DNA from: Cloacibacillus evryensis DSM 19522
Lineage (GTDB): Bacteria; Synergistota; Synergistia; Synergistales; Synergistaceae
Direction: 5' to 3'
Length of the DNA stretch: 64,000 nt
NCBI RefSeq assembly: GCF_000585335.1
Contig: NZ_KK073872.1
Coordinates: 564,001-628,000, forward strand
Below the pieces are notes generated by a model. It saw nothing but the letters and a program-made list of their open reading frames with translations, searched no databases and was not told where the DNA came from. Position 1 is the stretch's first letter, and each line of letters starts with the position of its first letter. The translations under genes and the position numbers were made by a program. Positions 5,747-19,914 of this stretch are shown here, in pieces.

Positions 5747-6826
5747 ATGGCGGTATATTTTGCTCCCCGCAATAGTAACAGGATAACGATCAACGACATC
5801 CTGGGTATGGTGGGAGGCCGGTTCCTGGATAGTATGATGGCCCGCGATGAGGCGGCCAGGCAGTATAAGTATAGGAGCAGGCTTGACGCGGAGGCGGCGG
5901 CGCGGTCGGAGGCCGAGAAGCGCGGATATATCGACATGATGCGCTCCGGAGTAGATAACAATCCGAATCAGCAGGCGGGGGCGGCGGATTTTCTCGGCGG
6001 CGCGGTGGGGGCCGGGGCCAATCTCCAGCATTTACAGAATTATTGGCTGCCGCAGATGCTTACGGTGGATCAGGGGAATCAAAAGACGGTTGCTCCAGCC
6101 TGGTCAAACGGTGCTGTCGGCGACGGCCGTTCGTATGATATGGGCGTCGATCCCGCAAAGGCGCAGGAGATGTCCGACAAGTTGAAGATGTATAACGCCG
6201 GTCTCGCGTGGGATAGGGAGCAGGGGCTTTGGGAGAGGGATTATAAGAACAGGGCTCTTGCGCAGGAGGCGTCAATCCGGCGCGAAGGACAGCGTAGGCA
6301 GCAGCCGGCACAGCTGATGCCTGACGGCAAGGGCGGCATGGTATGGGTCGATCCCGTATCGCGTTCTATTGTGCCTGCGGAGGGGATAACGCCGGGCAGC
6401 GGCGGCAGTATGCTTGAGTCTCTTTTTAAGGCGTCTGGCGCTTATAAGAATTTTTACGGCAATAATGGCGGTTCCAGCGGGCAGGGCGTTGTTGACGGCG
6501 GCGACGGCGCGGCGCAGCCGCAGATGGACCCTATCAAGTTTTTGCAGGTAATGGGGCTCTTGGGCAATGACGGTGGGGTGCCATTCTCCGACTATAAGCC
6601 ATTGTATGAAAGTATTGGTGATGGCGGGCTGAACGCTTATTCGTCCGCGCTTGGCGGCGTTGGCGGTCCCGCCGCGGCAGGCGGCGCGGCGCGTTCGCCG
6701 CAGACAGCCGGAAGCGGCGGCAAGCGGATCAGCATGGCGGATATTATCAATGAGGCAAATATACAGAACCGGCTGCCGGCAGATCTGGTGAGAGAGGCGC
6801 AAGAGAGCGGTTTTACAGTTTATTGA
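5747..6826 (+). CDS. Putative virion internal protein, unknown family
   Basis: A 359-aa protein with AAGGAGG ten bases upstream of the ATG. The N-terminal 70 residues are helical and basic/acidic, the middle is Gly-rich (GGVVDGGDG-like spacers), and the C-terminus (ISMADIINEANIQNRLPADLVREA) looks like the start of a lysozyme-like or helical docking segment. It ends just before a hairpin terminator and the giant gene. No motif proves a function; the ejection-complex role is contextual. Confidence 0.5.
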   Translation: MAVYFAPRNSNRITINDILGMVGGRFLDSMMARDEAARQYKYRSRLDAEAAARSEAEKRGYIDMMRSGVDNNPNQQAGAADFLGGAVGAGANLQHLQNYWLPQMLTVDQGNQKTVAPAWSNGAVGDGRSYDMGVDPAKAQEMSDKLKMYNAGLAWDREQGLWERDYKNRALAQEASIRREGQRRQQPAQLMPDGKGGMVWVDPVSRSIVPAEGITPGSGGSMLESLFKASGAYKNFYGNNGGSSGQGVVDGGDGAAQPQMDPIKFLQVMGLLGNDGGVPFSDYKPLYESIGDGGLNAYSSALGGVGGPAAAGGAARSPQTAGSGGKRISMADIINEANIQNRLPADLVREAQESGFTVY

Positions 6827-6831
6827 TTTTT

Positions 6832-6857
6832 AGGCGGGGGCTTCCCCGCCTTTATTT
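6832..6857 (+). terminator. Hairpin terminator between internal-protein genes
   Basis: AGGCGGGG (6832-6839) pairs with CCCCGCCT (6844-6851), followed by TTATTTT. It may attenuate entry into the giant gene. Confidence 0.6.
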
Positions 6858-6873
6858 TGGGGGAGGTCTTTTT

Positions 6874-9800
6874 ATGGCCAACTGGCTTGATAAATATTCG
6901 AAAAAAGAAGAAGCTGCAACTGGAACAAATTGGCTAGAAAAATACGCAGATTTGCGATCTGATACAGAAGGTACGGCGGAATCCGATATGTCCGATACGG
7001 AGACGATCACGCCGTCGCGGAAAGAGGGCGGCGGCTGGAAGGGTGTTATTCCCGCGCTCCTCCCTCCGCGTAATAGGATCGAGCGCATGAAGGGCGGCAG
7101 CGTCGATGAGAGGGTAGCGGGCAACGCGGCAAATTATGATCCGAATCTCCCGGACTGGACGATGGGGAAGGCTTTCAAGGGCGGTATCAGCGATAGTCTG
7201 GGGCGGACCGGCGCCATTATCAACATGAATACCAACGAGATAGAATCTTCCGCCGCCAATAAGGATATGACCGAGGTGGCGGCAAGCCCATATCTGACGC
7301 AGACGGAGAAGGCGGCCATTTTACGGTCAAAGAGTATTGGTTCTCCCGAGCTTTATAATGAGCTGATGGCGCAGCGCGAGTGGGCGAAGGAGGCCGCTCT
7401 TTCCGGACAGGAGTATTTTGACCCTGGCGCCTATAATATGCCGACCTCTGTCGCCGGGCAGCTTGTCCACGATGTCACGCGAGCGATGCCCTATACTTTG
7501 GGTTCGATGGCCTATAACATCCCCGTTGGTATAGCCTCCGGCGGCGGGTCTTTTATGGCCTCTCTACTTGCGGCCTCTCCCGAAGCGCAGATGGAGCAGG
7601 CGGATGTCTATGACGAGCTGCGGAAGCGCGGGATGAGCCACGAGGAGGCTTATGAGGCGTCGCAGAAGGTGCTGGCGGCAAATATGGCGATGCTGCCCAT
7701 GTCGAATTACTTGCAGTCGATGGCGGTAACGGGGATGACGAAGGCGGTTCGGGCCGCCGACGCTGGCGCACCGCTCGACACTCTTCTTGGCCGCACGGTC
7801 GGACGGGCAATGAAAAATGAAAGGCTTGGCGGTATCCTCCGCTCCGATAATGTCCGCGCCGCGGCGGGAACGCTGGTTGATATTTTAGGCGAGGGCGGAG
7901 AAGAGGTCGCCCAGGGATACGCCTCGGACAAGGCGCTGGGGAACGAGATCGATAAACGCGCCCTCGCTTATGAGGGTGTCGTCGGCGGCATGATGGGAGC
8001 GTTGTTCGGCATTGGCGGCAATATTGCCGACCGCGCCTTTAACGGCCGCGTCAATGTCAAAGGTAAGCCCCGTTCCGAGGTGGATAGTTTTATGGACGGT
8101 ATCGCCGGTGATATAGAGAATGCCTCCGCTGCTGCGCCGCAGAGCGGCGTGGAGGGGACAATCATGGGCGAGGGGGATACGGAGGGCGTATCGCGTAAGT
8201 TTGTGCCGAATACGCGCATTCTGAACGAGATGCGGAATTTTTACCGCGAGATCAGGAGTATCCCGGAGGCGCAGCGGTCGGCGGAAGATAATGAGAGTTT
8301 TAGCACTTTGCGCCATATTCTTGAGATGTATTCTTCGGGCCATGAGCGCGAGGCGGAGGCCCTGGCCAGGGAGCGATTTGATACGGGGCCGCTTGAAGAG
8401 GCCCCGCAAACTGCCCCAATTAACATGAGGGAGCGCGCGGCGTCTGAATTGGCTGTCCCCGTGGAGCGTCAGACACCGGCTAATGAGAGTATGGCGCTGT
8501 TAAACGCTATTCGAGGGAAGTTTGTTGAGGATTTCCGTCGCTACGGGGCCGTCGATATGGATTCGCTTTCCGGAGATGAGCGTTATCACGCCGCGCTGGT
8601 GCGCGCCGCTGGCGACGCTTATCAGCAGGGAGATTTTCAGCGCATGGTCAATATTCTCGCGCATCTTTACGCCCCTGCCGAGACGACTTCTGAGACCGGG
8701 CCTATTGCCGCCAGGGAACGCGCCACTTCGGAGCTTGCGGTCCCTGGCTGGCGTATGCCGGAAGCCGTGCGTCCGGAGGCGGCGGTACAGGCAGAGGCAG
8801 GGCCGCGGTACGTCGAAGTGCCGTATCCCTCTCGCCGCCGTAAAGAGGTGGCCGCCGATATGTCTAAGATGTCAAAGGGCGAGGTCGGCAGGAAGTATGG
8901 CAAGGATATTGCCGAGCTTGCCGCGAAGCGCGGTGCTTTAGCCGCCGCCGACGCCGTGGCAAAGCAGGATCAAATTGCAAAGGCGGATGCAGATAAAGCA
9001 AGGACGCAGGAAGTAGCGGAGCCGGTATCTGTTCCCGATGTGCCGCAGAATGCAGAGCCGCCGCAGGCAGAGAAGGCGCGGGAATTGGAGAACTCGCCGG
9101 AAGCGCCAGACGCGGCTGCAAAAAAGGATTTTCTTAAGGAACATGTGGTTGTGAGCGGAGTGCCAAAGAACGAGGGGGCCCAGCCTGCTAATGTTGGGCA
9201 GGCGGTGGATGGCGGCGAACGTTTTCCGGTCGGCTATGAATGGGAGGAGGACGGTGTTCTCTCGCGTGTCGTTGACATCAGAAAGTCTAAGGGGCCGACG
9301 GTTACTATGGAGAGCGCCATGCTGACCCCGACGCGCAACGGTATTGTCGCCACGCCTGTAGAATCGCGGGAGTATCCTATTGCCGGTGAAAAGAGATATA
9401 TTGTCCACAGGGACGGCCCGGACGGGACGGAGATATACTCCATTCCCGAGCGAGAGATGCCGGGTGCTGCACATGAGCGCGCGGCAGGCGCGAAAGCCGG
9501 GGAGACAAAGGGGCGGCAGCCGCTTGACAATGGTAAGATTATAGGACAAGATAAGGCAAAAGAGAAACAGGCTCAGGAGTCCGTCGGTAAGGATAAACCG
9601 GTTAAGGAGGGTAGCTCCGATGACGATAGAGGAAATGACGCAGCAGACGATAAATCACTGGAAGATGTATTACCCGGAGGAGTACGCGGCGCTGGACGGC
9701 GGGTGGGCGATGAGGCAGGCGACGGCCTGCGCAAAGCTGACTCGCTCGGAGATGGACGCGCAGAAGATGGTGTCACCGGGCATGACGGACGAGGAAGCGT

Positions 9801-12800
9801 GGAACGAGTCGCGGAATCTGTTTTGCCTGACGCCGCCGCCGGAACCGGAGGAGGAAGAACCGGAGGAGGAGACGGAGGCGGAAAAGGCCCGTCGGAGAGC
9901 GGATTACATGGAGTACAAGCTCGGGAGGAAACCGGAGGTTCCGAAGGGGTAGAATCCGCGAAGGAAGAGAAAACGCAGCAGGCGCCCCAGTCCCTGCTGA
10001 ATCCAAGAGAATCTAAGCCAGCGAAGTTGTCGGGAGAGAATCCCGGCAACTTTTTTATTGGCGAGGATTTTGGGCTTGGCGGCGGTACGGCAGGAGAGAA
10101 GATCGCCGGGAATTTAACCGCGCTGCGCACTCTTATGAAGCTGCGGAAGGAGCAGCGTTACCCAACGCGCGAGGAGCAGGCGGCTCTTGCCCGTTATGTG
10201 GGCTGGGGCGGATTGAAGTCTGTCTTTGACGTGAAGAAGGCAGGGGCTGGAGATATGTACGGCAAGGCGCAGCGGGTCCTCAAGGAGCTGCTTTCTCCCG
10301 ATGAGTACGCCGCAGCATTTCGCACGGTAAGCGACGCGCATTATACGTCAAAGCCTGTCGTGGACGCTATGTGGCGCGTGGTAAGGTTTTTCGGCTTTAA
10401 GGGCGGCCGTGCGCTGGAGCCGACGGTCGGGGTGGGTAATTTCCTTGGACTTGAGCCGTTGGATATCGCTTCTGCGACGGAGTGGCACGCCTCGGAGATC
10501 GACACTGTGACCGGGGATATCGCCGCTCTGCTGTATCCCGAAGCGAATATCCTCTCTTCGACCGGCTTTCAGGATGCTCCTTTTGCCGATAATGTATTTG
10601 ACCTGGTTATCGGCAATCCTCCGTTCGGTGAGACGACGATTAAGGATAGGCACAAGAGCCGCGCGCATTTGTCGGGGATGAAGATTCACAATTATATTAT
10701 CGCCAAGGCCGGTATGCATCTGCGTCCCGGCGGCGTGATGTCCGTCGTCGTAACGCATCGTTTTCTGGACACGGCCAATCCCGAGGCGCGCCGTGTGCTT
10801 GCCAAGGATTTTCGCTTTCTGGGCGCTTTCAGACTGCCGAATGACGCCTTTGCAAAAAACGCCGGCACGGATGTCGTCACCGATGTGATTTTCATGCAGA
10901 AGCTGCGGGCCGATGAAAAACCGGAGCTTAACGCAGCCTGGCTGGATACTAATGGCAGGATCACCGTTGACGGCAAAGATATTCCCGTAAATAGGTATTA
11001 TCAGGAGTATCCCAGCCATATTTTAGGACGTTCGGCGATGGACGGTACGATGTACGCCAGTTCGCGCGGTAATGAGTACACGGTGCATAGCGACGGGCGC
11101 GATATTAGTAAGGCGATCGATGATCTGCTGCGCGGCGATTTTGCAAAGCTGGCGGGCGTGATGGAGGAGACTGCCTCGGATGCCGATACGAAGGCAGCGA
11201 TGATCGTCCAGAGCGATATTCCCATCGGCAGTATGGCGCTGGATGATAATGGCCGCATTGTACGCCGCGCGATGGACGACGCCGGCGGCAACAGCGTGAT
11301 GGAGGAGATCACCCCCAATACGCTTTGGAAGGATAACGCCGCCGAGTGGAGCGCGGTGATCGACGCGCTGAAGGATGTGAAAAAGGCGGCCGCAGGCGGC
11401 AAGGGGCTGGAAGGGGCCCGCGATATGCTGGATTCGGTCTCTTATGTCGCCCGCACCGCGACGGGAGCCAAGCGCGGCAGTCCCACGGCGGCGGAGAGGG
11501 CGCTTTATTCCGTGCAGGACGCGCTTGAATCTGAGGGGCCGTCATTCTCATGGCGTTTCGACCAGGAGCTGAAGGAGATCGACGCCTCTTACCGCAGGAA
11601 GCAGCTCGGGCAGGAGAATTATTTGCGACTTCGCGGGATGTTGGAGCTGCGTCGTAAGCTGCAGGAGCTGAATAGGGCGGAGCGGGCGAATGACCCGAGG
11701 ATGGAGGCAATACGTAAGGGGCTCAACGGATTGTATGATTCGTTCGTCTTCAAGTATGGCCCGATCAGTGATAAGAGAAATTTCAGCCTGCTCGGCGTGG
11801 ACGTCGGGGTGGAGAGCGGTCTTGAGGCGGATTATCTGCCCGGCATCACTCCGGCGCAGGCGAAGTCCAAGGGGATTAAGGCCCGCAAAGCCTCCGCGAC
11901 GAAGGCCGATATTTTTACGAAGCGTGTATTTTACCCGGCGGAGGAGATAAAAAGGGCAGGCAGCGCCTACGACGCGATGGAGATTTCGCTCTCTCAGCGC
12001 GGCACTGTCGATATTGCCTATATGTCTGACCTTACCGGTAAACCGGTTACGGATGTTATTGAAGAGCTGAGTAAGGGCGAGCACCCGCAGCTTTTTATGA
12101 ACCCGGAGACGGATGTATATGAACATGCGGGAGAGTATTTATCCGGAAATGTGCGCCGCAAGCTGGAGGTGGCACGCAACGCCGGTCTTGAGCCCAATAT
12201 AAAAGCCCTGGAGGCGGTTCAGCCTCAGCCGAAGGATAAGAAGCATGTTACGCCGAATATCCGTGCCACCTGGATACCCGCCTCCGTTTATGAGAGTTTT
12301 CTCTCCGCGCTTGGCTGCGAGCGGCCGAAGGTGGGGATTATTCCCGGTATAGGCCGCATCAGGGTGGACGACGCGCGGTTCAACGCGACGGATTTCGGGA
12401 TGCAGTTCACGAACGAGTATAAGAGCGTGCCGGATATTTTTAACGCCGCCGCCGCGGGTAAGAGCCTCACGGTACGCGACAGCAAGAAGCAGGTGATCGA
12501 GGAGGCTACGCAGAAGGTCAACGCGCTTGTCGATCGAATGGGAAAGGTTTTTTCGGAGTGGGTTTATACGGACGAGGAGCGGACAAAGCAGATCGTAGAC
12601 GCCTATAACGAGAAGATGAATACGAATGTCGATCGGGGTTTTGACGGCGTGAAGTATCTGAAAACGGTCGGCAGCAGTCCCTCTATCGTTTTGCGTAATA
12701 CGCAGAAGAACGCCGCCTGGCGCATGATTCAGTCCAAGTCCGTGCTGCTTGACCATGTGGTTGGCGCCGGAAAGACTTTCACCGTGATTACCGGAGTGAT

Positions 12801-15800
12801 GGAACGTCGGCGGCTGGGGCTGTCGAAGAAGCCGCTGATTGTGGTGCCGAATCACCTGGTCACGCAGTGGGCGCAGGATTTTTACCGGCTTTACCCGGGG
12901 GCGAAGGTGCTCGCGGCGACGCCGGCGGATTTCACGGCGAAGAACCGGAAGCGGCTTTTCTCCCGGATAGCCACAACGAAGGATGTTGACGCGATCGTTA
13001 TCGGCCATTCGTCGCTGGGGTATATTCCTTCTCCGGGGGCGGACTTGAAGGCGATCATCAGAGAGCAGTTAGGTATTCTGCAGCAGGCTTTGGATGAAGC
13101 GCGGATTAACGGAGAGAGTAAGCGTTCTTTGTCGCAGATAGCACAGCGCATAGATTCTTATAAGGGGCAGCTCGAAGAGATCAGCAACCGCCCGTCGGAT
13201 AAGATTGGGCATGACTTGGAGACTCTCGGGATCGATTATATCGCCGTCGATGAGGCGCACGAGTTTAAGAATCTTGAGTACGCGACCGCGGGGGACCGAA
13301 TTGTCGGTATGAATGACCCTAGCGGATCGAAGAAGGCGTTTGACCTCTATGTTAAGCTGCGCGGCCTGCAGCAGCGCGGCGGGGGCGTTACTTTTGCCAC
13401 CGGCACGCCGCTCTCGAATTCTCTGGTAGAGCTTTACACGATGATGAAGTATCTGGCCGCCGATGACCTGAAGGAGAGGAATATGCTCTTTTTCGACGCC
13501 TGGGCCGGTTCTTACGCCGTGACCGAGACGCGCCTTGAGTATACGCCGACGCAGAAGCTGACGCTGCGGCGCGTGCTGGCGGGGCTGAATAATCTGTCGT
13601 CTCTGCGTCAGATGTACACCAGCTTTGCCGATATTATCACGATGCAGGATCTCAAGGATATGTATAGGAGGGAGATGGAGGAGCGGAACCGCAAAAATAA
13701 GACGAAGCTGCGTACGGAGTTCCCCGTGCCGAAGGTGACGGACGGCGGCCGCAAGCTAGATACCGCGCCTGCCACGGAGACGCAGCGGCTTCTGACGGAC
13801 TGGCTGGTCGCGCGCATGGACGCCGTTCAGAAGAACTCCGGGGATAAGGAGTATCGAAGCATCGACAATTATCTGACGGTGATGACGGACGCGCGGAAGA
13901 TGTCGCTCGATCCGCGGATCATCGATCCCTCTTTGCCCCGCGACGAGAATGGCAAGGTGATGCGCTGCGCCCGTAAGGTTAAGGCCACGTATGACAGGTG
14001 GGCCGATAAGAAGGGGACGCAGCTTATTTTCTGCGATATGTCCACACCCGCGAAGGCCGGGCAGAGGTCTGCGAAGAAGCTCGTGGACGACGCCGCGAAG
14101 ATGGTTTTCAGCGACGCGGAGCTGCGCGCTTTTAAGCAGCGGGCGAAGGGGCTGTCTTTTACGCGCCAGTGGGATATTGTGACTTCGGAGCGGGAACGGC
14201 TGCTTGGTGCTGAATCTTTGAGTCCGGCGCAGAGGGACCGCATGGAGGAGTATTTCAGCAAGCTGGAGGATGTGGACGCCGCGCTGTCTGTTGCCGACAG
14301 CGGGTTTTCTGTTTATGACGACCTGAAAACGGTGTTGACGGATATGGGGATTCCCGAGCGCGAGATCGCCTTTATTCACGATTATGAGTCGCCGGAGAAG
14401 AAGCAGGCGTTGTTTGACAGTGTGAATAACGGCGACGTGCGCGTGCTTTTGGGATCGTCGGCGAAGATGGGCGCGGGGATGAATGTGCAGAAGCGTCTGG
14501 TCGGGCTGCATCATCTTGATTCGCCCTGGCGGTCGTCGGATGTGGAGCAGCGCGAGGGGCGCATTATCCGGCAGGGGAATATGTTTTATGAGGCGGACCC
14601 GGAGGGGTTCAGCGTCGATATCACCAGTTATTCTACCTCCGGCACGGCTGATACGGTTATGTGGCAGATTCTCGCCCGCAAGGCGGCGGCGATAGAGCAG
14701 TTCCGTAATGGCGGTGAGATTGACGCGATGGCGGAGTCTAGCTCGGACGCAGATCAGTACGCCGATTTTATGGCGAGTTCGACAGGCGATCCGGTATTCA
14801 AGAAGAAGATGGAGGCGGAGCGCCGTTTCCAGGAGCTGGATGCCGAGGTGAGCGGCGCGCTGATGGCGCAGCAGAACGCGAGGGATTTTCTCAAAAGTTA
14901 TGAGGCGCGCAGCCGTGAGAATCAAAATGGACTGAGGATTTTGAAGGATGTCACGTTCGACGGTAAGGAGCTTTCCGCTTTTTCCGAGGCGCTGCGGCAG
15001 ACGGAGAAGCAGTACGGCGAGGATTATGCCAATTTTGAGAGGGACAACGCGGCATATAAGCGAGAGCTGTCTGTGTGGGAGAACGAGCCAGATAAGAAGC
15101 GGCGCGGCAAGAAGCCTGAAGCGCCTGTCCGTCCCAAGCGTCCCGGGATTTTATCTCCTGACGTGCAGAGGGCGTCCGCATTTGCACGCGCGGTCAAGAG
15201 GGCGATAGAGCCGCTGACGGAATCTTCCGCAACGGGCACGGTAAGTATCCCCTTCGCCGGCGGCAAGGTGGTGGTCTCCAGGATTAACGAACAGTACACC
15301 ACGCCGTCGTGGCTGGTGAAGTTTATCCCGGGAGGCACCGATACGTATGATGTCGTCATCGGCCAGGCGGAAGGCAAGGTACCGAAAAATCTTTCGCAGC
15401 TGACGGAGGTATTGTTGTCGCCGACTCATATTCAGAGCAAGATCGTATCGGCTACAAGGAATCTTGAACAGATCATACGCCGGATGGAATCGCAGAAGAA
15501 GTCCAGCGAGGCGTTGGCCGATAGGGATATTCCGCATCAGGCGAGGGACGACGCGAAGGAGGCAATGGACTGGTACGCTCTGCAGGTGGCGCTCGCCGAG
15601 GTCCGCGCCGACGTGGAGCGGGCCAAGAGGAAGAATCCTTTTATAGAGAATGACCGCAAGCATCGTCTTAAAACGGCGGCCGTCTCACGGATGGCGGAAG
15701 GTGTTATCAAGGTGGATGGCGTCGAGTACCGCACTACGGGGATTTCGGCGGCGACCCCGAACGGCTCCGGTACAGTGCTTGAGGCTGTACGCGTGGATAA

Positions 15801-18800
15801 CGGCGAGCCTGCCACGATCATCAGTTCTTCCGGTCAAAGCGGATCGGCGTTCACTGTTATGCGTATGCCTGAGTCGGTGGCCAAGGAGGCTGGCGGGAAG
15901 AAGGATACTCATTACCGGCTGGGGCCGACGGCGCAGGCTCGGCTCGACGCCGACGCCGCGGCCTTTGCGAAGCAGGTGGATGATTTTGTAGCTGGAAAGA
16001 TGGGACGTTATGCAGAATTTCAGGTGATGCAGACGCCGCTGGTGCTGCAGATCAGCGATGCGCGTGTAAAGCCTCTTCAAATAGTTATGTCGCAAAATAC
16101 GTTAAAGAAGATTTTTACGAAGCACAAGCTGTCGCCAAATTTGGTAAAACAGATCCCCGCGGCGCTGGCTGATCCTATCATGGTATTTGAATCGGAAGGG
16201 AGGGCAAAGCAGCTTCAAAACGGGTTGGTCGTGATGCTGGAGCTGAAGGACTCACAGGGGGCGACGATAAATGTGCCAATCGCGTTAAACGCTGCGCATA
16301 AGGGCGCACAGGGGCAGATTGTCTGCAATGATATTGCCAGTGCCTATGGACGGTTAAGCCCTCTGACGGGAAAGCCTTTTAACGACTGGTTTGTAAAGCA
16401 GGCTGCCGCTCCAGGGCGGCTTAAGTATGTCAACACAAAAAAATACTCTCAATGGATATCGCAAGCCGGACTAGTAGGGTCCGGGGGTCAATCCATCAAG
16501 AGCTTGTTTAATAGTGTAAAGACCGAGGCTGATCTTGTCAAGGCACAGAGCGCCGCTCCCGGAAGTTACGCGCTGGGCGAAAAACGGGCGGGGCTGCCGC
16601 CGCTTTCGGTGAGCGAGGTCGCCGCGCGCGTGAAGGGCGCTAAGGTCACAGAACTTGGCGAGGGGAAGATGCGGCTGGACTTTGAGAACGGTGTGTCGTG
16701 GATCGTTGACACGCAGGCGGAGGCGATCGCCGCCGACCCGGAGGTTGTGAAACGGGATTATGGCCGCGAGGTACGTCCTGGAGAGGTGGTCTCCGGGCGC
16801 ACGCGCGTTATCGACGGGCAGCGGTTTATCGATCTCGTCGCCGGCATGAGCGACGCCCGCACGTTTGGCCATGAGGTGTTTGAATCTGCGTGGGATTCTC
16901 TTTTGAAGGAAGAGCAGGCCGCGGTGCTGAAAACGCATGGGAGCCGCGAGAGGGCCGCCGAGATGTACGGCGAGTTCCTGGAGGGGCGCGTCGGTAAGCT
17001 GACGAAGAGGACGCAGGCGATTTTCCAGCGATTGAAGGATTTTTTCTCTGCGATACGCGCGACGTTGTTTGGCAGGAACTCTGAGGATGTTTTTCGTGAG
17101 ATTGCCTCCGGGAAGGCGCTGAATCGTAAGGCCGGCACCGTCGAGAATCAGGAGCATTACCGGCTGTCCGTTCGTAAACCGGCAGAGGCGTCGCCGGTGA
17201 GTGAGGCGGTGACGGTAGAGCCTGATGCTTCCGTCGTCGTGGAGAAGGACGCGCAGTGGCTACGCGACATGGGGACGGCAGAGCTTGAGCGGGTGGTGCG
17301 GCCTTCGCGGCAGGATGAGTCTATTAAGGATAAGCTCATTCATGTGAAGAATAATTATTACCGTCAGTGGCACGACCGGTTAAATCCGATCAAGAAGAAT
17401 TTTGGCGATGATATTTACTTTGATGCCGAGAACGCGATTTATGGCGCGGCCAGCCGCGCGGAGAGGCGCTTTGAGAAGGGAGACCCCGACAGCGGCGTAA
17501 AGGGATTGGTCGAGATTATGAAACCGATCGCGGCAAGCGAGCAGCAGGGATTTGCCGCGTATACGGTTTATAAGCATTTGAACGATATTGCGGCCAACAG
17601 TGAAAAATTGCTGAAAGCGGCCTCCGCGCTAGACGAAGCCGCCAAAGCGAAGCAGCGCGAGATCGTGGAAGATCGAAGGCTGCCGTCGCCTGATAAAGAG
17701 GCGCTTTCCGAATGGAAGAAGCGGATGACTGCCTTACGGGCAGAGCATGACCTTTATCGCGAGCAGGCACAGGCTCTGCGCGAGGCGGTGAAGTTTACGA
17801 AGGGGAGCGCGGCTCAGTATGCAGCGGCGGTACGGAAGATCGAGGAACATTATCCTCATTGGAAGAAGTCACAGCGCGAACTTGTGAAGTATAACCGGGC
17901 CCTGCTGGAGATGATCCGCGATTCCGGCATGATCTCTGATGAGATGTATTCGCGGTTGATCGACCTGTATCCAAATTATGTTCCTTTGCAGCGTGATTTC
18001 GGAGCGGACGAAAAGAGTGTCGGCGGCTTTGTCGGCGGTATGGGGCTGGTGAATATTCAGTCTCCGCTGAGAAGGTTAAAAGGGTCGTCGCGTGACGTCA
18101 TCGATCCTTTGGAGCAGATCGTGCGTAATACTTTTCAGTTTGAATCTGCGGCCGCCAGGCAGTCGGTGGGTCGCCAGATCATGGAGGAGTATGACAAGGG
18201 AAATTTCCATGAGCTGATGGAGGAGGTCGAGAATCGCCACCACGAGCCGGACGAGATGGTTTGGCATGTGTGGGATAACGGTGTGAAGAGGCTGTTTCGT
18301 TCGGAGCGCGATATTTACGAGGCGCTGATGCCCAGGGCACGCGCGAAGTGGGAGGATAATCCCGTGGTGGCCGCGTCGCGTTTTATTACTTCGCTGCTGA
18401 GGAAGGGGACTACGCACGGTCTGACTTTCGCGCTTCGCAACCCGGTGCGTGACACGTTCAATTATGCCATCGTCGGAGAGAATTTCCGCCCGGTGGTTGA
18501 CACTGTGCGGGGGTTGATGATGTGCTTCGACAAGCGCGTCGGCAGTATATATGACGAGTTTATGCAGCACGGCGGCGCGCAGGGGATGACGGTGCTGACG
18601 AGGAATGAACATGCGGAGCGCATGAAGCAGCTGCGGCACGAGAGTGGAACGGTCCTGTTGAGCTGGGCCAGTCTGAAGAACCCGCCTAAAGCCGTATATG
18701 AACTGATCGGGCAGCTCTCCGAATATGGAGAGCTGGCGTCTCGACTTGGGCAGTATGAACGGGCGAAGGCGGCGGGGTTCAGCGCAGAGGAGGCGGCCAA

Positions 18801-19914
18801 TATCACCCGCGACAATATGAATTTTATGCGCATGGGGACGCTGGGCGAGCAGGTCAATCAGCATGTTGGGTTTTTCAACGCTGCGCTTCAGGGCGTGGAT
18901 AAGATGTTCCGTACCTATTTTAAGGGCGGCAGGATCAACAAGAAGGCCCTGCTGCGGTCGTTTATGTATATAACGATCCCGTCTATGTTACAGATGTTGT
19001 ACAACTTTGGCGACGACGACCGAAGGAAGAGGTACGAGAATTTACCCGCCTGGCGCAAGAATACGTTCTGGAATTTTGTAATCGGCAAGGATGGGCCAAT
19101 CGTCACTATCCCAAAGCCTTTTGAGATAGGGATGATCTTCGGCAGCCTGCCGGAGCGTGCGCTTGAGTATGTCTATACGAAGAATAAACGGGCCTTTGAC
19201 GGCGTAGGGTCGTCTATGCTCTCTTCTCTTACGCCGGAGTTTTATCCGAATGCGATGCTGTTGCTGGCCGAGATTGGCTCGAATCATTCTTTTTTCTATC
19301 AGCGTCAGATCGTCTCTGAAAGGGAAAAACGTTTCGAGCCGGCTTTGCAATATGGACCGTATACGGCAGAGTGGGCTAAGGCGGCAAGCAAGGCGTTGAA
19401 TGTTTCGCCCAGGCTGCTGGAGTATTCCGTTTTTTCCATTGGCGGCGGGCTTGCAAAGGAGACGTCGAATGTCTCTGATGCCCTGATAAGAAAGTTTCTG
19501 ACGAAGGAGACTCGCCCGGATCGTCCCTGGTATGAAGCGGCTCCAGGCACGAGAGGGTTTTTCGCCAGCGATGGTGATGCAACGGAGAGCGCCTTTCAGT
19601 CGGAGATTCAGCTGCTCAATAGGAAGCGGGCCACGGCAGAGGAGATTCTCAAGACGAAGGGACCCCAGGCTCTCAGCGAGACGCAGAAGAGGCTTATCCG
19701 CGCGAATAACGATATTAAAGCGTTATCGAAACTGAATAACGGCAAGGGCGGTATTTATGACGCGTACAGAGCGGTCCGCGAGATTACTACGGCAAAGAAT
19801 TTGAGCGCCGTTGAGAAGCGAATCCGTATCCGTCGTATTGAGGAGAATATCCGTAATGCCTCCGAGCGGGGCCTGGCACGGATAGACAAGATCAATGCTT
19901 ATCTGGACAGATAG
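6874..19914 (+). CDS. Giant polyvalent virion protein: membrane region, DNA methyltransferase, SNF2 helicase, MuF-C-like and LPD domains
   Basis: About 4,346 aa from ATG 6874 (GGGGAGG upstream). Residues about 180-400 are Gly/Ala-rich and membrane-active, as in ejection proteins. About 915-1030 is a low-complexity linker that also encodes a second gene. An N6-adenine methyltransferase follows: LEPTVGVGNF near 1180 and NPPF near 1248. An SNF2-like helicase has VVGAGKTF near 1964, DEAH near 2126, GTPLSNS near 2180 and EQREGRIIRQGN near 2558. A MuF-C-like domain lies near 3050-3200, then a HEVFE segment near 3333 and long helical polyvalent-associated regions to the end (FGDDDRRKRY near 4050). 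Such polyvalent proteins are thought to be injected with phage DNA to protect and process it. The protein could be cleaved after synthesis; no protease site was identified. Confidence 0.85.
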   Translation: MANWLDKYSKKEEAATGTNWLEKYADLRSDTEGTAESDMSDTETITPSRKEGGGWKGVIPALLPPRNRIERMKGGSVDERVAGNAANYDPNLPDWTMGKAFKGGISDSLGRTGAIINMNTNEIESSAANKDMTEVAASPYLTQTEKAAILRSKSIGSPELYNELMAQREWAKEAALSGQEYFDPGAYNMPTSVAGQLVHDVTRAMPYTLGSMAYNIPVGIASGGGSFMASLLAASPEAQMEQADVYDELRKRGMSHEEAYEASQKVLAANMAMLPMSNYLQSMAVTGMTKAVRAADAGAPLDTLLGRTVGRAMKNERLGGILRSDNVRAAAGTLVDILGEGGEEVAQGYASDKALGNEIDKRALAYEGVVGGMMGALFGIGGNIADRAFNGRVNVKGKPRSEVDSFMDGIAGDIENASAAAPQSGVEGTIMGEGDTEGVSRKFVPNTRILNEMRNFYREIRSIPEAQRSAEDNESFSTLRHILEMYSSGHEREAEALARERFDTGPLEEAPQTAPINMRERAASELAVPVERQTPANESMALLNAIRGKFVEDFRRYGAVDMDSLSGDERYHAALVRAAGDAYQQGDFQRMVNILAHLYAPAETTSETGPIAARERATSELAVPGWRMPEAVRPEAAVQAEAGPRYVEVPYPSRRRKEVAADMSKMSKGEVGRKYGKDIAELAAKRGALAAADAVAKQDQIAKADADKARTQEVAEPVSVPDVPQNAEPPQAEKARELENSPEAPDAAAKKDFLKEHVVVSGVPKNEGAQPANVGQAVDGGERFPVGYEWEEDGVLSRVVDIRKSKGPTVTMESAMLTPTRNGIVATPVESREYPIAGEKRYIVHRDGPDGTEIYSIPEREMPGAAHERAAGAKAGETKGRQPLDNGKIIGQDKAKEKQAQESVGKDKPVKEGSSDDDRGNDAADDKSLEDVLPGGVRGAGRRVGDEAGDGLRKADSLGDGRAEDGVTGHDGRGSVERVAESVLPDAAAGTGGGRTGGGDGGGKGPSESGLHGVQAREETGGSEGVESAKEEKTQQAPQSLLNPRESKPAKLSGENPGNFFIGEDFGLGGGTAGEKIAGNLTALRTLMKLRKEQRYPTREEQAALARYVGWGGLKSVFDVKKAGAGDMYGKAQRVLKELLSPDEYAAAFRTVSDAHYTSKPVVDAMWRVVRFFGFKGGRALEPTVGVGNFLGLEPLDIASATEWHASEIDTVTGDIAALLYPEANILSSTGFQDAPFADNVFDLVIGNPPFGETTIKDRHKSRAHLSGMKIHNYIIAKAGMHLRPGGVMSVVVTHRFLDTANPEARRVLAKDFRFLGAFRLPNDAFAKNAGTDVVTDVIFMQKLRADEKPELNAAWLDTNGRITVDGKDIPVNRYYQEYPSHILGRSAMDGTMYASSRGNEYTVHSDGRDISKAIDDLLRGDFAKLAGVMEETASDADTKAAMIVQSDIPIGSMALDDNGRIVRRAMDDAGGNSVMEEITPNTLWKDNAAEWSAVIDALKDVKKAAAGGKGLEGARDMLDSVSYVARTATGAKRGSPTAAERALYSVQDALESEGPSFSWRFDQELKEIDASYRRKQLGQENYLRLRGMLELRRKLQELNRAERANDPRMEAIRKGLNGLYDSFVFKYGPISDKRNFSLLGVDVGVESGLEADYLPGITPAQAKSKGIKARKASATKADIFTKRVFYPAEEIKRAGSAYDAMEISLSQRGTVDIAYMSDLTGKPVTDVIEELSKGEHPQLFMNPETDVYEHAGEYLSGNVRRKLEVARNAGLEPNIKALEAVQPQPKDKKHVTPNIRATWIPASVYESFLSALGCERPKVGIIPGIGRIRVDDARFNATDFGMQFTNEYKSVPDIFNAAAAGKSLTVRDSKKQVIEEATQKVNALVDRMGKVFSEWVYTDEERTKQIVDAYNEKMNTNVDRGFDGVKYLKTVGSSPSIVLRNTQKNAAWRMIQSKSVLLDHVVGAGKTFTVITGVMERRRLGLSKKPLIVVPNHLVTQWAQDFYRLYPGAKVLAATPADFTAKNRKRLFSRIATTKDVDAIVIGHSSLGYIPSPGADLKAIIREQLGILQQALDEARINGESKRSLSQIAQRIDSYKGQLEEISNRPSDKIGHDLETLGIDYIAVDEAHEFKNLEYATAGDRIVGMNDPSGSKKAFDLYVKLRGLQQRGGGVTFATGTPLSNSLVELYTMMKYLAADDLKERNMLFFDAWAGSYAVTETRLEYTPTQKLTLRRVLAGLNNLSSLRQMYTSFADIITMQDLKDMYRREMEERNRKNKTKLRTEFPVPKVTDGGRKLDTAPATETQRLLTDWLVARMDAVQKNSGDKEYRSIDNYLTVMTDARKMSLDPRIIDPSLPRDENGKVMRCARKVKATYDRWADKKGTQLIFCDMSTPAKAGQRSAKKLVDDAAKMVFSDAELRAFKQRAKGLSFTRQWDIVTSERERLLGAESLSPAQRDRMEEYFSKLEDVDAALSVADSGFSVYDDLKTVLTDMGIPEREIAFIHDYESPEKKQALFDSVNNGDVRVLLGSSAKMGAGMNVQKRLVGLHHLDSPWRSSDVEQREGRIIRQGNMFYEADPEGFSVDITSYSTSGTADTVMWQILARKAAAIEQFRNGGEIDAMAESSSDADQYADFMASSTGDPVFKKKMEAERRFQELDAEVSGALMAQQNARDFLKSYEARSRENQNGLRILKDVTFDGKELSAFSEALRQTEKQYGEDYANFERDNAAYKRELSVWENEPDKKRRGKKPEAPVRPKRPGILSPDVQRASAFARAVKRAIEPLTESSATGTVSIPFAGGKVVVSRINEQYTTPSWLVKFIPGGTDTYDVVIGQAEGKVPKNLSQLTEVLLSPTHIQSKIVSATRNLEQIIRRMESQKKSSEALADRDIPHQARDDAKEAMDWYALQVALAEVRADVERAKRKNPFIENDRKHRLKTAAVSRMAEGVIKVDGVEYRTTGISAATPNGSGTVLEAVRVDNGEPATIISSSGQSGSAFTVMRMPESVAKEAGGKKDTHYRLGPTAQARLDADAAAFAKQVDDFVAGKMGRYAEFQVMQTPLVLQISDARVKPLQIVMSQNTLKKIFTKHKLSPNLVKQIPAALADPIMVFESEGRAKQLQNGLVVMLELKDSQGATINVPIALNAAHKGAQGQIVCNDIASAYGRLSPLTGKPFNDWFVKQAAAPGRLKYVNTKKYSQWISQAGLVGSGGQSIKSLFNSVKTEADLVKAQSAAPGSYALGEKRAGLPPLSVSEVAARVKGAKVTELGEGKMRLDFENGVSWIVDTQAEAIAADPEVVKRDYGREVRPGEVVSGRTRVIDGQRFIDLVAGMSDARTFGHEVFESAWDSLLKEEQAAVLKTHGSRERAAEMYGEFLEGRVGKLTKRTQAIFQRLKDFFSAIRATLFGRNSEDVFREIASGKALNRKAGTVENQEHYRLSVRKPAEASPVSEAVTVEPDASVVVEKDAQWLRDMGTAELERVVRPSRQDESIKDKLIHVKNNYYRQWHDRLNPIKKNFGDDIYFDAENAIYGAASRAERRFEKGDPDSGVKGLVEIMKPIAASEQQGFAAYTVYKHLNDIAANSEKLLKAASALDEAAKAKQREIVEDRRLPSPDKEALSEWKKRMTALRAEHDLYREQAQALREAVKFTKGSAAQYAAAVRKIEEHYPHWKKSQRELVKYNRALLEMIRDSGMISDEMYSRLIDLYPNYVPLQRDFGADEKSVGGFVGGMGLVNIQSPLRRLKGSSRDVIDPLEQIVRNTFQFESAAARQSVGRQIMEEYDKGNFHELMEEVENRHHEPDEMVWHVWDNGVKRLFRSERDIYEALMPRARAKWEDNPVVAASRFITSLLRKGTTHGLTFALRNPVRDTFNYAIVGENFRPVVDTVRGLMMCFDKRVGSIYDEFMQHGGAQGMTVLTRNEHAERMKQLRHESGTVLLSWASLKNPPKAVYELIGQLSEYGELASRLGQYERAKAAGFSAEEAANITRDNMNFMRMGTLGEQVNQHVGFFNAALQGVDKMFRTYFKGGRINKKALLRSFMYITIPSMLQMLYNFGDDDRRKRYENLPAWRKNTFWNFVIGKDGPIVTIPKPFEIGMIFGSLPERALEYVYTKNKRAFDGVGSSMLSSLTPEFYPNAMLLLAEIGSNHSFFYQRQIVSEREKRFEPALQYGPYTAEWAKAASKALNVSPRLLEYSVFSIGGGLAKETSNVSDALIRKFLTKETRPDRPWYEAAPGTRGFFASDGDATESAFQSEIQLLNRKRATAEEILKTKGPQALSETQKRLIRANNDIKALSKLNNGKGGIYDAYRAVREITTAKNLSAVEKRIRIRRIEENIRNASERGLARIDKINAYLDR
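9620..9952 (+). CDS. Overprinted small gene in +1 frame inside the giant gene
   Basis: A 110-aa frame with a textbook Shine-Dalgarno (AAGGAGG, 9604-9610, nine bases before ATG). The protein MTIEEMTQQTINHWKMYYPE... has normal composition with Trp, Tyr and Met, and patterns such as ACAKLTRSEMDAQKM and DEEAWNESRNLFCLT. These resemble small proteins that accompany methyltransferase-helicase genes of gut phages and integrative elements. In the same bases the giant gene encodes a Gly/Asp/Arg-rich low-complexity linker, as expected if the small frame is the constrained one. The likely history is fusion of two genes across a small gene. Function unknown. Confidence 0.7.
   Translation: MTIEEMTQQTINHWKMYYPEEYAALDGGWAMRQATACAKLTRSEMDAQKMVSPGMTDEEAWNESRNLFCLTPPPEPEEEEPEEETEAEKARRRADYMEYKLGRKPEVPKG

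Follow-up and report, generated by a model that had tools for sequence, protein, structure and literature searches.

A conserved small gene nested in the +1 frame of giant DarB-like antirestriction genes of phages and other mobile elements

Can a gene that already encodes a giant polypeptide harbour, in another frame of the same strand, a second gene? This question is raised by a 64,000-nucleotide stretch of the Cloacibacillus evryensis DSM 19522 genome (contig NZ_KK073872.1, positions 564,001 to 628,000; hereafter the window, to whose first letter all its coordinates refer). A giant DarB-like polyvalent gene occupies positions 6823-19914 of its forward strand, and an open reading frame (ORF) at 9620-9952 on the same strand, running from an ATG to a TAG codon and specifying 110 amino acids, lies wholly enclosed in the +1 frame of the giant ORF. 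The first-pass annotation had taken this ORF to be a hidden gene, and the signals to which it pointed are present: an AAGGAGG Shine-Dalgarno (SD) sequence at 9604-9610, nine bases 5' of the nested ATG, and a giant protein that is reduced across the overlap to a Gly/Asp/Arg-rich linker (30 Gly, 15 Asp and 10 Arg among 110 residues), predicted to be disordered. The evidence presented here leaves very little doubt that the small reading frame is a real, previously unannotated protein-coding gene inside the giant gene. The favoured reading, to which a probability of roughly 0.8 is given, is that it encodes a conserved small partner of a methyltransferase-SNF2 antirestriction module, made by internal initiation and probably trapped in its present position by gene fusion.

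An open +1 frame is in itself weak evidence, because synonymous recoding of the giant frame left it open in 17% of trials in the window (median among relatives, 64%). Long spurious ORFs are frequent in the window, and ORF length was dropped as evidence for a gene after the recoding test. What places the nested ORF beyond chance is its conservation, as seen in profile matches, in a retained start codon with its SD sequence and in a codon-position bias. A family profile built without the window protein identified ORF 9620-9952 alone among the 850 six-frame segments of the 64-kb window (E = 7e-27), and a profile made from distant nested copies only also identified it among the 850 segments (E = 1e-13).

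As a lone query the window protein found almost no relatives, with nothing significant in Pfam or in phage and viral collections; in PHROG only a weak match to it was obtained (E = 0.0027). Free-standing homologues are present in genomes of the same phylum, with 52% identity in G040, 50-53% in G089, G090 and G091, and 32-44% in G008, G026, G033 and G092. The closest of these, in G040, comes directly after a repeat array resembling a CRISPR (clustered regularly interspaced short palindromic repeats) array (L003, 58-1170), while in Pseudidiomarina (L188, 4974-5762) the small protein constitutes the N-terminal part of a 262-residue protein, the C-terminal part of which resembles membrane helices. 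A tblastn search of the fetched loci identified relatives inside the giant genes of L030, L031 and Pseudomonas phage Itty13 (L001), each in the +1 frame and just 5' of the methyltransferase. These nested relatives emerged only after the free-standing copies and a profile had become available, and the Itty13 match (E = 0.2), which at first looked like noise, turned out to be a nested copy. The deposited Itty13 annotation shows long hypothetical ORFs antisense to the true giant gene, itself unannotated.

The extent of the nesting is apparent from 80 viral contigs chosen by methyltransferase-domain alignment only, blind to the small protein. A profile member (E <= 0.01) is found in 69 of these, in the same slot and invariably in the +1 frame, never in the +2, and 9 of the 11 remaining contigs carry a different +1 ORF in this slot, starting with MQTLYKP or similar. 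This second nested +1 subfamily (MQTLYKP..ANRWALGW..GEYLEAL; L064, L073, L085, L087, L088, L091, L099, L100 and L118) may be homologous to the first, a profile comparison by hhalign being suggestive (p = 0.005). A third, divergent nested version occurs in the Burkholderia phages BcepIL02, JC1, DC1 and CSP3, its ATG preceded by AAGGAGG in BcepIL02, DC1 and CSP3 and by AAGGAGA in JC1. Among 107 loci fetched by means of the small family itself, 93 carry the gene nested +1 in a methyltransferase-containing ORF, and none has it enclosed in the +2 frame. The constant frame was discarded as proof of a single origin, as in free-standing copies the frame concerned is inherently more open than the alternative. 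When plasmids were searched by tblastn with a proteobacterial nested copy as query, no match was obtained. The nested gene is unannotated in SopranoGao, PEp14, BcepIL02, VvAW1, Atu_ph08, JC1, DC1 and CSP3. No description of it was found in a literature search that largely lacked subscription papers, so that this absence proves nothing, and the main text of the 2017 survey of polyvalent proteins by Iyer et al. (PMC5512222) mentions neither the overlap nor TnpV, a relative considered below.

Both the start signals and the pattern of substitutions mark the small frame as coding. In 43 nonredundant copies (80% identity clustering), an ATG or GTG codon with an SD sequence of at least four bases is retained at the aligned start in 40, against a background of 0.6% for same-frame codons within 600 nucleotides; because the candidate closest to the profile start, up to nine bases away, was accepted as the start, the level expected by chance rises, though to no more than a few per cent. 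Fourteen disjoint close pairs aligned as DNA show 150, 57 and 38 differences at giant codon positions 1, 2 and 3 over the first 75 small codons, corresponding to positions 3, 1 and 2 of the small frame, while the methyltransferase region of the same pairs, used as a control, shows 63, 27 and 431 (p = 6e-17 versus the overlap). The second subfamily has a bias in the same direction (20/5/7, 20/10/6 and 10/4/6). Since substitutions are concentrated at the third position of the small frame, the small frame is the more constrained of the two, and in 98% of pairs its identity exceeds that of the giant frame in alignments guided by the small frame. The first-pass annotation had left the matter to the existence of homologues and to the frame followed by third-position variation; homologues exist, and third positions vary as expected if the small frame is coding.

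The structures predicted by AlphaFold agree with this asymmetry. The small protein is modelled as five helices with a predicted local distance difference test score (pLDDT) of 92. For the giant protein, the stretch across the overlap is predicted without secondary structure at a pLDDT of about 30, and values climb mostly to 75-95 in the methyltransferase. Through the nested copies the giant frame is open, but in most free-standing copies it runs for no more than a few to about 250 codons before closing. It is the giant frame, rather than the small one, that looks like filler in the overlap. The arrangement is nonetheless a same-strand nested overlap with both frames coding, the small frame being supported by its start, SD sequence and substitution bias, and the giant frame by staying open along the nested copies and running on into the methyltransferase.

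The small gene is tightly linked to the methyltransferase. Distances between small proteins follow those between methyltransferases (Mantel rho 0.73), but those of the 150 giant codons just upstream hardly do so (rho 0.20). Moreover, 30 of the 53 pairs with at least 90% methyltransferase identity have dissimilar upstream sequences (below 45% identity), and in these 30 pairs the small protein still averages 86% identity. As the distances track the methyltransferase and not the upstream part, the small gene belongs to the methyltransferase module, and recombination swaps the fused part upstream. Sinorhizobium phage PBC5 (L124/L126), L147, L148 and L153 have a split giant ORF, with the break lying around the small gene or after it. 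The upstream half in PBC5 is read in the same frame as the small protein and stops where the small gene does, and the methyltransferase stands as an ORF of its own; this arrangement may be a natural split, an indel or a sequencing error. A PHROG family, phrog_938 (endolysin), likewise ends with the small protein.

A wider kinship is suggested by TnpV (PF14198), which has been postulated to act in excision in the manner of lambda Xis (PMC3158075). The Pfam TnpV model gives sub-threshold matches to nested copies, the best nested relative reaching 16.6 bits against a gathering cut-off of 27 bits, and the window protein itself gives no Pfam match up to E = 10 and thus lies outside TnpV as delimited by that cut-off. 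Conversely, the phage nested proteins are matched by a TnpV profile with E values as low as 8e-7 when a small set is searched, and by hhalign at p of about 1e-4; on such sequence comparisons, the phage nested proteins and TnpV are likely to be distant homologues. In related genomes TnpV is located 5' of the methyltransferase, nested +1 in a giant methyltransferase-SNF2 ORF, and it is nested likewise in faecal contigs, a Monoglobus plasmid, a Virgibacillus plasmid and IMG/VR contigs. The arrangement in the window is that of TnpV in L133, L134, L142-L146, L149, L152, L157 and L170. On plasmids of Enterococcus faecalis and Campylobacter coli there are nested ORFs that match TnpV, the former at E = 1e-8 and the latter more weakly, each with an SD sequence. 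Most other TnpV copies are free-standing and lack a long enclosing frame, so that a position nested +1 in, or adjacent 5' of, the methyltransferase-SNF2 gene is a trait of many, not all, TnpV genes.

A counterpart as a separate gene, which the first-pass annotation had anticipated beside methyltransferase-helicase genes in other elements, was reached through structure. The best VIA match of the small-protein model is 2apl (Z 7.1, 2.3 Å over 64 residues; runner-up 5.4), at a level that helical bundles may reach by chance. This structure is PG0816 of Porphyromonas gingivalis, a DUF1896 (PF08989) protein (E = 2e-28 with a DUF1896 sequence), and DUF1896 genes in Bacteroidota genomes and a Phocaeicola plasmid are located directly 5' of a methyltransferase ORF, overlapping its start by about 14 nucleotides. 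A structural match whose lead ends at a gene so placed argues well, if circumstantially, for a possible kinship with DUF1896. The sequence profiles of the small family and DUF1896 are unconnected by hhalign (p = 0.37), the DUF1896 Pfam model does not recognise the window protein, and Foldseek gave no match to the small-protein model in the PDB at E <= 0.001. The top Foldseek match in BFVD, Q8W6J4_2 (E = 0.008), could be the PBC5 fusion protein.

These observations may be combined as follows. Ribosomes would start independently at the nested SD sequence and ATG on the giant mRNA, as the conserved signals suggest, and yield a mostly helical, acidic protein of 110 residues. The protein would be a member of a superfamily in which TnpV is a distant relative, would be DUF1896-like in structure and would accompany a module of LPD36, N6-methyltransferase and SNF2 (DarB type). 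In the Bacteroidota its putative counterpart is a gene of its own that immediately precedes the methyltransferase gene. The upstream gene in phages, in conjugative-type elements and in some plasmids appears instead to have become joined to the methyltransferase gene by a frame that runs through the small gene out of register with it, and the small gene would for this reason sit in a disordered linker of the giant protein. The direction was probably the one proposed in the first-pass annotation, namely that fusion trapped a pre-existing small gene. Free-standing homologues, interchangeable upstream halves and split genes all fit this proposal. The event is also not local to this phage, the arrangement being common to many phages, plasmids and conjugative-type elements. 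Being encoded in the module's own mRNA, the small protein would be produced together with the methyltransferase-helicase. Tentatively, and with chances slightly short of even, it may bind or regulate this module, for example by keeping it in an inactive state, or in one fit for packaging and ejection, until it acts to protect the incoming DNA. Still more tentative is the broader proposition that the small protein is an integral part of the DarB-type machine, and that TnpV, DUF1896 and the phage nested proteins form one superfamily with a single role in controlling or delivering the antirestriction enzyme.

The most serious competitor, possible yet less probable than the partnership, is that the gene is real and its product acts alone, as an injected anti-defence or regulatory protein that is only co-transcribed with the methyltransferase-helicase. 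TnpV stands alone in many mobile elements, and free-standing copies of the small gene are found near defence genes, such as type I methyltransferase and specificity subunits (L189), restriction helicases (L198, L200), AbiEii (L004) and HicAB (L197). Such restriction and abortive-infection neighbours, taken as individual cases, would fit a role in restriction biology, but they are mostly not co-directional, and the tight methyltransferase link with its correlated distances favours the partnership. The neighbours include SNF2 and ResIII helicases, and L188 has an AAA_5 ATPase with a weak match to a type II restriction enzyme.

Birth de novo by overprinting in the giant linker, followed by escape as a free-standing gene, is unlikely. 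Overprinting is a known route to viral overlapping genes (review PMC8227390) and a disordered linker would be tolerant of it, but the small protein has an ordered, conserved fold, DUF1896 is separate in the same position, free-standing copies occur in several phyla and it is the giant frame that resembles filler. Still more unlikely is programmed frameshifting out of the giant frame, by which the small protein would form the C-terminus of an upstream-half product. The PBC5 arrangement and phrog_938 would be consistent with it, but PBC5 is a single case that may stem from an indel or a sequencing error, the start codon and SD sequence stand at the same place in 40 of 43 copies, and free-standing copies start there too. 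That the ORF is a by-product of linker base composition and repetitive Gly/Asp/Arg codons, from which no protein is made, is hardly credible despite the recoding results and the abundance of spurious ORFs, given homologues that lack a long open giant frame, the retained start and SD sequence, third-position substitutions and a pLDDT of 92. Equally implausible is a selfish or homing element in the methyltransferase gene, for which the hidden out-of-frame HNH gene of the ShiLan domain in a phage methylase gene (PMC11855218) is a precedent, as the small protein has no nuclease or other Pfam domain above cut-off, is present in nearly all relatives rather than sporadically, follows the methyltransferase in its distances and, unlike the ShiLan HNH gene, has an SD sequence.

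Some observations weigh against the favoured reading. Phage P1 DarB is without such a nested ORF, so the module can function without one, and since free-standing copies also lie near unrelated genes, the protein is not everywhere bound to this module. The link to DUF1896 consists of structure and gene position with no sequence link, its Z of 7.1 being modest for helical folds, and that to TnpV is distant, both its bit score and its hhalign p value, given above, being those of remote relatives.

Giant DarB-like genes account for at least a fifth of the genome in some phages (JC1, 22%; PMC9144972) and have so far been treated as encoding one protein. With a conserved second gene inside them, annotation and virion proteomics have overlooked a protein, and genetic work on the giant gene may have hit two genes at once; a relative of the giant protein, JC1 gp69, has been detected among structural proteins (PMC9144972). 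For TnpV and DUF1896, both frequent in conjugative elements, the nesting points to a function that can be tested, and it offers a natural case of gene nesting by fusion of neighbours in which the separate, split and nested states are all extant.

The giant gene of the window matches phrog_10089 (DarB-like antirestriction) with 1090.7 bits. Its length of 4,363 amino acids is counted from a mechanical TTG start, and the true start may be further downstream. The disordered linker containing the overlap spans 9451-10020 and is followed by the N6-adenine methyltransferase region (10054-11499), with an Eco57I-type match at about 10564-10815 and a conserved NPPF motif. Further domain matches are to a SNF2-related helicase domain (SNF2-rel_dom, 12709-13278), Helicase_C (14356-14577), MuF_C (16117-16449) and large polyvalent protein associated domain 38 (LPD38, 19027-19533), all on the forward strand. 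An N6-methyltransferase followed by a SNF2 helicase in one polypeptide with an LPD domain identifies the gene as DarB-like and polyvalent. Elsewhere in the window, an ORF at 25708-27084 matches a phage family of ribonucleotide reductase large subunits (phrog_6397).

Compared with known systems, the giant host gene resembles the DarB-type polyvalent proteins of phage P1 (PMC5512222) in its methyltransferase, SNF2 helicase, MuF_C and LPD38, while P1 darB differs in having no nested ORF; Ulx of P1, considered as a counterpart of the small protein, was rejected, as it has no similarity and is located downstream of darB. TnpV of Tn4451-like and conjugative elements is similar to the window protein in size, in its helical (W/L)KEH-P-Y-L-G-L pattern and in location, but has an N-terminal GDYLIPxL motif and a C-terminal half not seen in the window protein. 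DUF1896 may share a helical fold with the nested protein and likewise occupies the slot directly 5' of the methyltransferase ORF, and differs in being a separate gene with a longer C-terminus and no detectable sequence similarity. Nested phage genes are known as such from the embedded Rz1 spanins (PMC9144972) and the out-of-frame HNH of the ShiLan domain (PMC11855218), where a second gene likewise lies wholly inside another in a different frame. Those cases involve other proteins and roles; the present pair occurs across phages, plasmids and conjugative-type elements, and its members are found as separate genes too.

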